A stretch of 35,299 bases of DNA from Candidatus Lambdaproteobacteria bacterium (lineage in GTDB: Bacteria > SAR324 > JACQKK01): NCBI GenBank assembly GCA_016204605.1, contig JACQKK010000154.1, positions 1 through 35,299 of the forward strand. Reading direction: 5' to 3'. The notes below the pieces were generated by a model that was not told the origin of the DNA, did no database searches, and saw nothing but the letters and a program-made list of their open reading frames with translations. Shown here one piece after another: positions 30,186 through 35,163 of this stretch; position 1 is the first letter of the stretch; the number at the start of each line of letters is the position of its first letter. The translations under genes and the position numbers were made by a program.

Positions 30186-30413
30186 CCGGCCGCGGCGCCC
30201 GACCTGGTGCCGGCCAACGCCGCGGGACGGGCGCGGCGGCGCCTTCCCTGAGCGGCGGTGCCGCCCTGCGCCAGGCAAGCCGCGGCCGGCGGCCGGCAGG
30301 GACGATCGTCCGCGCGCAGGCGCCGGGTCGGCCGCCAGGCTCGCACCCCGGTTGCGCCGCGGCTGATGGGGTCAGGGGTCGGCCGCACCGGATGTCGCCC
30401 CAGAGGGGGGGGC

Positions 30414-31054
30414 ATGTCTCCGACAGGGGTCGCCCGAACGAGATGCGGGAGCCTGCCCCAGGCGTCTCCAGGCGCACGGCCATCTGCCCGGCCTGCACCC
30501 TGGGGAGTCGGGATCGGCGCGGCCCTGCTGCTGGGGTACGCCTTGGCGTCCTGCGCCGGGGAGCACCCGGCGGTCCCGGTCGATCCCCGCATCGCCGCCG
30601 GCGCCGCCTGGGTGCTCGGCAATACCGTGGCCGACCTCACCGTCGCCGGCGGCACGATCGCCTCGGTGGGCTACGGCGGGGCCGTGGGACTCTACGAGGT
30701 CGCCTCGGCGATGGTGGTGCCGGTCGGCCACCTGGGCGGGGCGGGGTGGTGCTCAGCTACAAATCCATCACCCACCTCGCCGCCCACAGCGTGCTGGCCG
30801 TGGCCGACGCCTCCTACCTGGTGCTCTCCCTCGAAGGCCCGCGCTGGGTGATCTATGCCGTCAAGGGTAACCTCAGCTCCGGCGAGGAGCTGACGCCCGG
30901 CACGATCCTCGACCTGAAGCGGATGCAGGCCAACGGCGAGGTGTTCTGCAACCTGCCCGTCTCCGACGCCGAGATGAGCGCCGTGGTCGCCTCCGTGCCG
31001 GCAAGCCTGCCAACGGCGAAGGCCGCGCCGGGGAAGGATGAGGGGAAGGAATAG
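30414..31054 (+). pseudogene. Frameshifted lipoprotein gene
   Basis: Two frames together make one plausible protein. The first, from the ATG at 30414 (after a GGGGGG-type ribosome site), carries a hydrophobic stretch and lipobox LASC (C47) and runs through ASVGYGGAVGLYEVAS. The second takes over near 30740 with VVLSYKSITHLAAHSVLAV and ends in a charged tail (KAAPGKDEGKE). The switch lies in GGGCGGGGCGGGG (30735-30746); one additional G would join the frames as GGAGVVLSY. This may be a true mutation or a read error in a G run. The joined product would be about 213 residues, an uncharacterised lipoprotein. Confidence 0.65.
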
Positions 31055-31143
31055 GGAGCGGGGAAGGGGGAGTGAGGCGGGAGAGACGGCGCGGTCGCGG
31101 AACTGACGGCGTAAATATGAGAGCCAGGGGATGCACTGTCGAA

Positions 31144-32028
31144 TCACGTGAGTCGATTTGAACGACTTTTTATCCCGGGTGGGATGAGACCGGTGTTCCT
31201 CCGATCAGGGCGGGATGAATGCAGGGCGCTCCACGTGTGAGTGTCCCACTGCAAAATTGTGCCGTTCATGTAATGATGCAAGTACACACGTGAAAATGGG
31301 CACCGTACCAGACTGGTTGATAGCTCATGGCTTTGGGTCAACTGGACTGGAGAGATTTGTCCAAGGAGCTGCGATAATCCAGTGTCACCTACAATCAAGA
31401 GCCATTTTTCCAAATCTTCAGCCGCCTTCGATTTCAATATCTTGCTGGCTTTCGATTCTACAATTCTTGCTACTTCCTTTGTATCAAAGTCCGGATTCGC
31501 GTAACCAGATATGTTGCAGCTAATTCTGGTACCGGCGAGGCGCCATTGAGGAACTGACGCGCCGAATTCAATGCGGAACAAATGATCCTGCAACACCGGA
31601 AATCGCGCAAGTTGACGTTTTTCTAGCTTCTCAGGGAGATTGCCTGACCCATAGGACAAAAGCAAGTCTTTCAATTCTAATGCAAATCTGTCATGCTCGC
31701 CGATGGGAGGTATTCTAATGGCATGAAATTGCAGAAACACTATGACATCTGAGAGGAATTCGTTTGACAGTTGATACCGAATTCGAGTTCGCAGCTTCTG
31801 CCACGAAGCATCGATACTCCTTTGATTCGCAGTTCTTGGATGTTTTGATTTTGGCGAATGATACTCTGTCACTTCAACAGCTATTCTTCGTTCCGACCAC
31901 GTGAGGAAGAAATCAGGGATCTTGTTGTACGGCCCGTTTTGGATCGAAGGGTAGTTGCATTTGAAGTCTTCAAGAAAGCAGCGCAGCAAGAAACGTTCGC
32001 GTTCCTTCTTGTCTTCTTCCGTTCCCAT
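31144..32028 (-). CDS. Hypothetical protein with PD-(D/E)XK-like segment
   Basis: A 294-residue protein not recognised as a named family. Near the N-terminus KIPDFFLTWSERRIAVEVTE (36-55) has the pattern of a restriction-endonuclease-like core (D39, then E52-x-T54 in place of ExK), followed by a basic stretch. The rest is mixed alpha/beta with no membrane segment. The DNA is visibly AT-richer than everything around it, with different codon use, indicating recent acquisition. ATG at 32028 follows the stop of the ispG-like fragment by eight bases, so it was probably translated downstream of an ispG homologue. Its position beside the HEPN cassette fits a defence-type gene, but the function is unproven. 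Confidence 0.75.
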   Translation of the reverse strand: MGTEEDKKERERFLLRCFLEDFKCNYPSIQNGPYNKIPDFFLTWSERRIAVEVTEYHSPKSKHPRTANQRSIDASWQKLRTRIRYQLSNEFLSDVIVFLQFHAIRIPPIGEHDRFALELKDLLLSYGSGNLPEKLEKRQLARFPVLQDHLFRIEFGASVPQWRLAGTRISCNISGYANPDFDTKEVARIVESKASKILKSKAAEDLEKWLLIVGDTGLSQLLGQISPVQLTQSHELSTSLVRCPFSRVYLHHYMNGTILQWDTHTWSALHSSRPDRRNTGLIPPGIKSRSNRLT

Positions 32029-32036
32029 AGGCTATC

Positions 32037-32128
32037 TCACGCCTCGACCCACCTCCCGTGCTGCTTGATGAGCTCGACCAGCCGCTCGACGGCCTGGTCG
32101 GTGTGGATGCCCTGGGCAAGGGAGCCCG
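32037..32128 (-). pseudogene. Duplicate of the ispG 3' end (remnant)
   Basis: Reading on the minus strand this encodes GSLAQGIHTDQAVERLVELI and then KQHGRWVEA followed by TGA, matching the C-terminus of IspG at 32923-33014. About ten of 85 bases differ, and many of these changes are silent or conservative, so it looks like the 3' end of an ispG from a related lineage rather than a fresh duplication. No start codon or upstream ispG sequence accompanies it; homology ends 10 bases before the HEPN gene stop. Confidence 0.85.
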
Positions 32129-32137
32129 CGGAGTACA

Positions 32138-32503
32138 TCACGGCTGTCGCTCGAACTGCGCCATCAGCTCGTGGCAGAGCGCCAATGCGTTGACCGCATC
32201 TTCACGGTTGATTTCTCGGTCCAGGTCATAGTCCGCCTTTTCCCTCAACACGTAGAGTGCTCGGAGCTTGTCTGCAACATAATGTCCCTCGCCACCCGAT
32301 GCTCGGATTCGCGCAATCAGGACCCCATGCCGCATCCGGTCGCTAACGCGCACGCGCAGGAAAGCACGCCCCTGATGAAAAGCCGCGTAGTAGGCCCGAT
32401 TGATACTCGTGCGGAATAGCGCTTCCGGCGCGACGCCACGAATGCTTTCGCCGGCGGCGAGCCACTCCGCGACATCGAGCAACGCGGCAGACAGGGCGGC
32501 CAT
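32138..32503 (-). CDS. HEPN-domain protein
   Basis: A 121-residue helical protein of the HEPN superfamily, which includes many toxin and defence RNases. The characteristic helix is FRTSINRAYYAAFHQGRAFL (30-49), and a second is LRALYVLREKADYDLD (80-95). An R-x6-H spacing (R36 to H43) is present, but whether it is the catalytic HEPN motif is uncertain. The ATG at 32503 directly follows the TAG of the upstream gene (TAGATG), so the two are translationally coupled. It would be the effector of the pair if this is a toxin-antitoxin or abortive-infection module. Confidence 0.85.
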   Translation of the reverse strand: MAALSAALLDVAEWLAAGESIRGVAPEALFRTSINRAYYAAFHQGRAFLRVRVSDRMRHGVLIARIRASGGEGHYVADKLRALYVLREKADYDLDREINREDAVNALALCHELMAQFERQP

Positions 32504-32854
32504 CTAGTTGAGGTGCCACGTCAGGGCGATCCGGTCCTGATCGCGGTACGGGATGACGCGGCTCCACTTGCGGACAAGGTGGTCGTACTTGGCCTGGAAT
32601 TCGGCAAGCGGGCCGATGAAACGAATCTCGAACGCCACGCCCTCGTCGTCCTCCTCCTCGTAGCCGCCTGTCAGGAAGAGCTCGTAGTCGGCAGTGCCCT
32701 GGAAGACCTCACGGAACAGGTCGACGGTCGCCAATATGGAAGGCAGCAGCTTGCGCGTGCGCAAGAATTCCAACACTTCTGGGCTGGCGTGGAGGGGTTC
32801 CCCGCCGCTGCCGCGCTTGCGTGATACCCGCGCGGGATTACGAGTTGATGGCAT
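32504..32854 (-). CDS. Small protein paired with the HEPN gene
   Basis: A 116-residue protein not recognised. It has a basic N-terminus (PARVSRKRGSGG), then PEVLEFLRTRKLLPSILATV, an acidic loop (GGYEEEDDEG) and FEIRFIGPLAEFQAKYDHLV before a final charged segment. It lacks the GSxxRG motif of MNT nucleotidyltransferases that commonly accompany HEPN proteins. ATG at 32854 is preferred to a TTG four codons earlier because GGAG lies six bases upstream of the ATG. It is the first gene of the cassette; by arrangement it would be the partner or antitoxin. The stop abuts the HEPN start. Confidence 0.75.
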   Translation of the reverse strand: MPSTRNPARVSRKRGSGGEPLHASPEVLEFLRTRKLLPSILATVDLFREVFQGTADYELFLTGGYEEEDDEGVAFEIRFIGPLAEFQAKYDHLVRKWSRVIPYRDQDRIALTWHLN

Positions 32855-32922
32855 GTCTCGCTCCAACGGCGATGGCTTGAAGCATTCCGGTCACCGTCAG
32901 CATACACCGTTTCCGATCTCCC

Positions 32923-34731
<1,809 letters not shown>

Positions 34732-35163
34732 CGCCGCACTCCCACGCGCGCGGGCGGCCGGCCGAGATCCCTGGCCCGCCGCAGCGGCGCGCGCCATGGG
34801 GATCACGGCGGGGACGATGCCCGCTTGCGCAACAGGTTAAAGGAGGCTTCCCGCGAGCACAAGCGCCGGCGCGGGAAGGGCTCGTTTGGAATCAAGCGCC
34901 GTGGCCGGCGGCCTCACCCACCCCGGCCCTCCCTCTCCTGGTGGAGAGGGAGGGACTCTGCAATCGGTAGTCATGGCTCTTTTGAGCCCCTCTCCCCCCG
35001 GAGAGGGGCGCGCCGGCGCCAGCCGGCGGGGGTGAGGCCAACGGGACAACTGCTCCCGCGCGGGTGAGTTTTTCAGTGGTCTCAAATTGGAAAGAACAGA
35101 TTCCTCATTTCATTCGGATTGACAGGGTGTTGTCATTCCGAGCGTAGCGAGGAATTCCTTTTT
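34732..35163. other. Intergenic region between ispG and the group II intron
   Basis: The region holds the ispG promoter area, one family A repeat (34909-35039) and, from 35040, an AT-richer segment. Near 35130-35155 is GTCATTCCGAGCGTAGCGAG, a sequence type common as a dispersed repeat in many bacteria, followed by GGAATTCCTTTTT, a short palindrome plus T run that ends where the intron begins. No coding sequence was recognised. Confidence 0.5.
34909..35039. repeat. Double-hairpin palindromic repeat, family A, copy 3
   Basis: The outer arms CCGGCGGCCTCACCC and GGGGGTGAGGCC are complementary, and inside are two hairpins (CCCTCTCC/GGAGAGGG around 34935 and CCCCTCTCC/GGAGAGGGG around 34988-35008). 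The order and spacing match copies 1 and 2. It lies about 180 bases upstream of ispG, unlike copy 1, which is downstream of fur. Confidence 0.75.

Follow-up and report, generated by a model that had tools for sequence, protein, structure and literature searches.

An AT-rich gene behind a duplicated ispG end encodes a predicted PD-(D/E)XK-fold protein of an unnamed, scattered family

Bacterial genes that differ sharply in base composition from their surroundings raise the question of what they encode and how they reached their present position. Such a gene lies on the 3' side of the host gene ispG in the 35,299-nucleotide stretch of Candidatus Lambdaproteobacteria DNA analyzed here (the window), where it is separated from ispG by a two-gene HEPN cassette and by a second copy of the ispG 3' end. 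A first-pass annotation of this DNA had proposed a nuclease-like protein next to an accretion site for defence-type genes. We set out to establish what can be said of the gene, of its protein (the window protein), and of the order in which the parts of the locus were assembled.

The AT-rich gene and its surroundings

The features of the locus are as follows.

31144..32028, minus strand: the AT-rich gene (294 codons), whose product is predicted to have the PD-(D/E)XK fold and belongs to an unnamed family
32029..32036, minus strand: 8-nt gap, GATAGCCT, from the stop codon (TGA) of the ispG-end copy to the ATG of the AT-rich gene
32036..32127, minus strand: distal copy of the ispG 3' end, whose 3' half is nearer to the ispG of relatives than the present ispG tail is
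32037..32138, minus strand: 33-codon open reading frame over the distal copy, its ATG overlapping the HEPN stop codon (TGATG)
32080..32103, minus strand: 24-nt run identical in both copies, distal side, a possible site of crossover
32138..32503, minus strand: HEPN gene (PF05168, E 8.9e-06; phrog_5176, E 5.2e-12)
32504..32866, minus strand: HEPN partner gene (no match in Pfam, PADLOC, PHROGs or NCBIfam)
32922..33013, minus strand: present 3' end of ispG, with an unusual 3' half as judged from the repeat and from comparison with relatives
32923..34806, minus strand: ispG (GcpE), the host gene (PF04551, E 1e-121)
32966..32989, minus strand: the same 24-nt run, ispG side

In the list of open reading frames, the AT-rich frame begins with ATG, ends with TGA, encodes 294 amino acids, and contains KIPDFFLTWSERRIAVEVTEYH. 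None of 20,000 base-shuffled versions stayed free of stop codons, so the frame is hardly due to chance. Its GC content is 0.471 (0.495 at third codon positions) against 0.693 for the whole window. Third-position GC reaches 0.943 in ispG, lies at 0.90–0.94 for ispG and three other core genes, and is intermediate in the two genes of the HEPN cassette (0.69 and 0.81). When codon adaptiveness is expressed relative to the local core genes, the AT-rich gene scores 0.194, the HEPN gene 0.34, and its partner 0.51, compared with 0.74–0.80 for the four core genes, which are themselves the reference set. The lower GC content noted in the first-pass annotation is thereby borne out, and codon use relative to the local core genes points the same way. 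In 60-nt steps from 31141 to 32040, GC ranges from 0.40 to 0.58, with 0.62 just below and 0.70 just above; the AT-rich stretch sets in where the ispG-end copy has its stop codon and tails off around 31100–31140.

The earlier statement that the protein has no recognized family also holds, as neither Pfam and PADLOC (both at E ≤ 1) nor NCBIfam returned a match. The protein weakly matches phrog_35865 (E 0.0013), over only 50 residues (193–242). Searches with the single sequence yielded no relative in sets of 98 and 52 genomes, its own genome apart, in bacterial contigs (six 8-residue patterns only), or in viral contigs, plasmids, phages, or PDB sequences. The gene is real, intact, and foreign-looking, and its product is a divergent member of an unnamed family. 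A 220-codon frame on the plus strand (30392–31054), for which Pfam and NCBIfam gave no match, converges on it.

Family membership, predicted fold, and candidate active site

Proteins exist in which a PD pair is followed at a distance by [IV]-[AG]-[IVL]-E-x-T-E, and the search for relatives was started from this motif, written as a DNA pattern. In viral contigs, the pattern occurs in five stretches, one of which encodes a relative (L061); this gene of 253 residues lies at one end of its contig, and its protein aligns with the window protein over 263 columns at about 25% identity and matches phrog_35865 at 2e-13 (residues 7–236). In bacterial genomes, at least 80 loci carry the pattern. Among the 80 matches listed, 59 have a complete frame of 200 amino acids or more, and 50 of these 59 score E 1.4e-25 or better with an iterated profile, which was itself built from such pattern hits and was applied only to complete frames of that length. 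The nearest by BLAST among the matches listed comes from a groundwater proteobacterial MAG (L099; 34% over 117 columns). Alignment A1, made of randomized copies that preserved the motif, led to a single over-narrow pattern and to no relative.

The link between the window protein and these sequences was assessed with a leave-one-out profile, in which the window protein was removed and the rest realigned. This profile aligns to residues 4–260 with 59.8 bits (E 6.7e-17), compared with 8.1 bits for the best of 5000 shuffles, in a test that is not wholly independent because the members had been gathered with profiles containing the window protein. Even with the PD and ExTE stretches masked, the score is 24.7 bits versus 9.1 for shuffles, so that the link has support beyond the motif. 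Those two stretches are imposed on most members by the search pattern. A profile search of 383 genomes matched the window's genome and three others, and the members in these three, which are pattern-free and were read by eye, keep the glutamate of motif I, the PD pair, the glutamate of motif III, and a helix lysine; their residues at position 54 are T, T, and S. Overall, the comparisons give strong support for placing the window protein in a scattered bacterial family, to the other members of which it is only 15–22% identical in alignment A4. Alignments A3–A5 exclude the divergent pattern hits L083, L085, L089, L094, L106, L110, L111, L123, and L125, as well as near-identical Weeksellaceae rows.

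The closest approach to a name for the family is phrog_35865 (PHROGs v4), a group of unknown function to which the window protein is linked through strongly matching members and the leave-one-out profile. It is matched at E 0.01 or better by 27 of the 33 aligned members, the window protein included. We found no mention of it in the literature searched, and its profile was silent in 98 genomes but also in 14 controls, which makes that result uninformative. Other collections gave little: PADLOC found one weak match among 33 members (AbiEi, 0.0068) and NCBIfam one weak match (0.0017) to a glucan-branching enzyme model. With Pfam, 7 of 23 members (A3) weakly match Imm6 (PF14434) at E ≤ 0.1, the best at 0.00051, and the window protein shows no such match at E ≤ 1. 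Imm6 is an immunity-protein family, and these weak matches are not explained by a nuclease reading. Used as a query, L061 recovered only its own contig from viral contigs and nothing from plasmids or phages; L099 and L137 recovered nothing from plasmids, and L187 nothing from phages. Alignment A3 produced 110 pattern matches in viral contigs, again with the L061 contig as the sole relative, and the family profile found one irrelevant match in PDB sequences (E 0.46).

From the single sequence, AlphaFold2 gave no usable model (pLDDT 33). With 34 sequences (A5, which leaves out members L186–L188), residues 1–266 were modelled with a mean pLDDT of 76.7 and a pTM of 0.75. The predicted order of elements is helix 4–22, strands 28–31, 40–44, and 47–55, helix 67–88, and strand 96–101, that is, an α-β-β-β-α-β core, which is the core order given for the PD-(D/E)XK superfamily (PMC1913061). 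Foldseek returned nothing at E ≤ 0.001 in the PDB or among viral models; its PDB list contains RecU, XisH, EcoRV, and Hjc-type chains at E of about 0.5 to 1.2, behind unrelated proteins. From the Foldseek list, 997 chains were given a second structural look with VIA-align, of which the best 50 of 997 rows were considered. The top row is 1y0k (Z 9.1, the single row above Z 8), followed by XisH (Z 7.3). We take 36 of these best 50 rows, ten of them Hjc or Hje, to be PD-(D/E)XK-type proteins of about 15 kinds. The remaining 14 comprise acetyl-CoA carboxylase (4), TRIP13/PCH-2 (5), small GTPases and related proteins (4), and one more. Since the unrelated carboxylase rows reach Z 6.7–7.0, level with the 7.3 of XisH, the XisH score alone says little, and the weight of the fold assignment lies in how well topology, motif positions, and the composition of the structural list agree. 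The two best structural counterparts, 1y0k (PA4535), whose title gives its function as unknown, and XisH (2inb, 2okf), are 10–15% identical to the window protein. With superfamily members such as Hjc (1gef), the protein shares the predicted core topology and the E, D, and E of motifs I, II, and III, but it differs in having threonine in place of the motif III lysine and extra elements after the core. Taken together, the model and the structural comparison make a fairly strong case that the window protein has a PD-(D/E)XK-type fold.

The candidate active-site residues map as follows.

31996..31998, minus strand: E11, motif I candidate, in helix 4–22; conserved in at least 90% of alignment A4 and not imposed by the pattern
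31912..31917, minus strand: P38-D39, motif II, with D39 just before strand 40–44; mostly pattern-imposed, kept in 3 of 3 pattern-free members
31864..31875, minus strand: E52-x-T54-E55, motif III, in strand 47–55; E52 kept in 3 of 3 pattern-free members
31450..31452, minus strand: K193, in helix 183–198; conserved in at least 90% of A4 and not pattern-imposed

In the PD-(D/E)XK superfamily, the residue two positions after the motif III glutamate is usually lysine, and variants are known. Here the position is occupied by T54, and threonine is found in 90% or more of alignment A4. For want of this lysine we claim the fold and not a canonical nuclease. The first-pass annotation had recognized a resemblance to a PD-(D/E)XK core; as far as the fold goes, the prediction agrees, and it is at the motif III lysine that the resemblance gives out. 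A comparable substitution is described for DUF1626, a PD-(D/E)XK family in which the motif III lysine is often threonine and the basic charge has probably moved to the motif IV helix (PMC1913061). The likeness of DUF1626 to the window protein lies in this residue pattern alone. In our alignment, the helix that follows motif III has a variable R, K, or Q close to its beginning, and the conserved K193 sits in a later helix. The likely site consists of E11, D39, and E52, with threonine replacing the lysine of motif III. These three acidic residues would bind a metal ion, the missing lysine would be made good by a basic residue elsewhere, and the protein would cut DNA or RNA. We regard E11, D39, and E52 as a likely metal site on the basis of the model, and our confidence that the protein is a nuclease is moderate.

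That the protein might instead be a fold without a function, a catalytically dead or truncated passenger, is suggested by the threonine itself, by the 7 of 23 relatives that weakly resemble Imm6 (by its name a non-enzymatic type of family), and by the end of the gene. The family-homologous part, as aligned by the leave-one-out profile, covers codons 4–260 (31249..32019, minus strand), and codons 261–294 lie outside it, over a hairpin-rich stretch. We nevertheless consider decay improbable: the frame has no internal stop, E11, D39, E52, T54, and K193 are kept despite identities of 15–22%, and threonine is the norm of the family and no lesion.

The last ~31 codons (31146–31236, minus strand) can be drawn as a cloverleaf-like fold with a T-arm-like hairpin, AGTCG-TTCAAAT-CGACT, of which there is one in the window versus 0.05 expected in shuffles; the z-score of the fold is only −1.57. 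Neither ARAGORN nor Rfam reports a tRNA in this hairpin-rich end, and no second copy of it was found in the genome.

The duplicated ispG end and the variable locus behind it

The two copies of the ispG end (32036–32127 and 32922–33013) are 92 nt long, 87% identical with 12 mismatches, and 886 nt apart, and the 24-nt identical run occupies the middle of both. No third copy was found beyond the AT-rich gene, nor is there a further strong copy in the genome, where other matches score 39 bits or less. Six relatives from the same family served for comparison, and they side with the ispG copy at the informative positions upstream of the 24-nt run (5:0, with one tie) and with the distal copy downstream of it (4:1). 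Fisher's test gives this mosaic a two-sided p of 0.048, on ten positions of which some rest on one or two relatives; the stop-codon position, which was left out, would count 2:0 for the distal copy. In its 3' half, the distal copy therefore seems native-looking, and the tail now on ispG foreign-looking.

Such a mosaic would arise if the HEPN pair came in on a circle that also bore an ispG tail of its own and that crossed over inside the 24-nt run. On this reading, the AT-rich gene originally stood directly behind the genome's own ispG, and the HEPN pair was the later arrival. The 8-nt spacing between the copy's stop codon and the AT-rich gene had been read correctly in the first-pass annotation, which took the copy to be foreign and concluded from the spacing that the gene used to lie directly behind another ispG. 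What few informative positions there are suggest the opposite, namely that the present ispG tail arrived with the HEPN cassette. The alternative that the copy is a plain decayed tandem duplication, independent of either insertion, fits the fact that there is one repeat pair only and that no recombinase is recognized between the copies. A decayed copy, however, should differ throughout, and the distal copy agrees with the relatives at 4 of 5 downstream positions, for which reason we judge a simple duplication unlikely.

Insertion at gene ends by site-specific recombination is known for cis-mobilizable elements. The HEPN unit resembles these in that a repeat of the target-gene end flanks the pair and in the mosaic across the identical run; att-like repeats derived from a duplicated target end are a feature of gene-end integrative elements. 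It differs in being a unit of 886 nt without a recognized recombinase and in that no empty site has been seen. The only two genes of the unit encode the HEPN protein and a partner without a family match. Because the partner matches no model, labelling it an MNT nucleotidyltransferase is not supported. Among the papers listed in a literature search on insertion at ispG, none mentions ispG. Since the ATG of the 33-codon frame over the distal copy overlaps the HEPN stop codon, translation could still pass on to the AT-rich gene.

Six related genomes differ in what lies on the 3' side of ispG (all labels by reading). G001, G004, and G005 have an isomerase-like gene and an aminotransferase gene there; G003 has the aminotransferase together with another gene, G008 a ferritin-like gene, and G009 one more ORF. 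A homologous HEPN pair, 44% and 34% identical, occurs in a genome of another genus (G006; L196, G006:C53, 3092–3747), where it is low in GC, including third-position GC, with no ispG-end copy seen downstream. Beside it are the same aminotransferase and a ferritin-like gene that shares 70% identity with the G008 gene, so the pair is apparently at the same locus, though the contig ends before ispG. In the window's genome, the aminotransferase lies on another contig (G000:C37, 13341–14528), so the linkage between ispG and the aminotransferase is broken there. As none of the relatives' other ispG-flank genes was found in the 8.5 kb read around that aminotransferase, the conserved gene order is lost at or near the AT-rich gene.

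The 3' side of ispG varies in gene content. Its description as a defence site depends on the AT-rich gene and on the occurrence of the HEPN pair in two genera. Of the accretion site for defence-type genes proposed in the first-pass annotation, the variability stands, given that the downstream genes differ among six relatives and that the HEPN pair recurs in a further genus, whereas the other genes found there do not look defence-like.

Distribution, neighbourhoods, and probable role

The single-sequence search found homologues in none of 51 other genomes of the window's phylum, and the foreign composition together with this absence is what argues for acquisition. The broad profile search found members in 3 of 382 other genomes, and in the phylum of one pattern-free member, its genome (G306) stands alone among 39.

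The neighbourhoods of the relatives bear on what the gene might do. Near the member in Lysobacter chinensis (L082), a Fic gene was read together with genes for type I specificity and type I restriction, and near L186 a Fic gene was read as well. Among 71 neighbour proteins at 11 patchy loci, two SoFic, one Specificity_I, and one REase_I match were obtained as raw counts, the matching proteins being unnamed by the scan; Fic alone was judged defence-type among 25 of the 72 Pfam families found for these proteins. A different picture emerges from Weeksellaceae. One neighbour gene recurs at 33 of 62 tabulated loci (among the matches listed), all 33 belonging, by their titles, to Chryseobacterium, Kaistella, Cruoricaptor, or other Weeksellaceae. 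The synteny shared there indicates that the family gene is old and settled, and this common, syntenic occurrence is unlike that of an accessory defence gene. The shared neighbour looks, by reading, like an alpha-glucan phosphorylase (L066–L144).

These patterns give some substance to the idea that the protein has the PD-(D/E)XK fold but serves ordinary DNA repair, recombination, or RNA processing, the gene being a chance pick-up kept for a housekeeping-like benefit. The settled Weeksellaceae loci, the Hjc-type resolvases and XisH among the structural rows, and Fic being the sole defence-type family among those judged would all agree with it. A housekeeping gene would not be expected to be so scattered elsewhere (3 of 382 genomes, G306 alone among 39, none of 51 in the window's phylum), nor do the type I restriction and Fic-type matches among the neighbours favour it. 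We rate a role of this kind as possible but on the whole rather unlikely. The view of the gene as acquired and not part of the core genome applies to the genome studied here, given its rarity in the phylum and in the broad search, and does not extend to Weeksellaceae.

Self-repeats are present at 6 of 20 other family loci (L082, L099, L139, L186, L187, and L188) and absent from 14; those of L099 and L188 were inspected, and neither was recognized as a gene-end pair like that of ispG. At L188 (L205, 9025–11080, G265:C93), the member lies within a one-direction run of single genes split by ~100-nt repeats, of which there are four copies, 82–93% identical in the listed pairs. At least two of these repeats end a few bases before the next start codon, which gives the run the look of a cassette array, and one copy carries a one-base gap. 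The idea of integron attC sites is not supported, as the repeat strands fold no better than shuffles (z 0.25, 1.75, 0.56, and −0.43).

The reading that we prefer, and consider reasonably probable as a whole, is that the AT-rich gene is an acquired single-gene insert behind the ispG stop codon and encodes a stand-alone PD-(D/E)XK-type protein of an unnamed, patchy family. According to this model, the gene was acquired horizontally and placed directly behind the ispG stop codon. With less confidence, we suggest that it may be a small one-gene defence or DNA-processing factor reading on from ispG, that the HEPN pair may later have been inserted between ispG and the AT-rich gene through a crossover inside the ispG end, and that this crossover may have swapped the ispG tail and moved the native one downstream. 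Support for a defence role of the window protein is weak.

A bolder version would make the ispG end a landing site for small recombinase-free cassettes, each of which brings a single defence-type gene or a pair of them and, with its own tail, restores the ispG frame. The AT-rich gene would then be an older layer and a new one-gene nuclease system of a threonine-type PD-(D/E)XK kind, and the displaced native tail, with its TGATG overlap and 8-nt gap, would keep it translated in one run with the HEPN pair. We offer this version as a speculation with a small chance of being correct.

For the family, our results mean that a scattered group of proteins without a clear Pfam or NCBIfam name gains a predicted fold and a list of residues, which makes it testable by two or three mutants. 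For the locus, they offer a checkable model of how small cassettes may accumulate behind a housekeeping gene while its reading frame is left intact.
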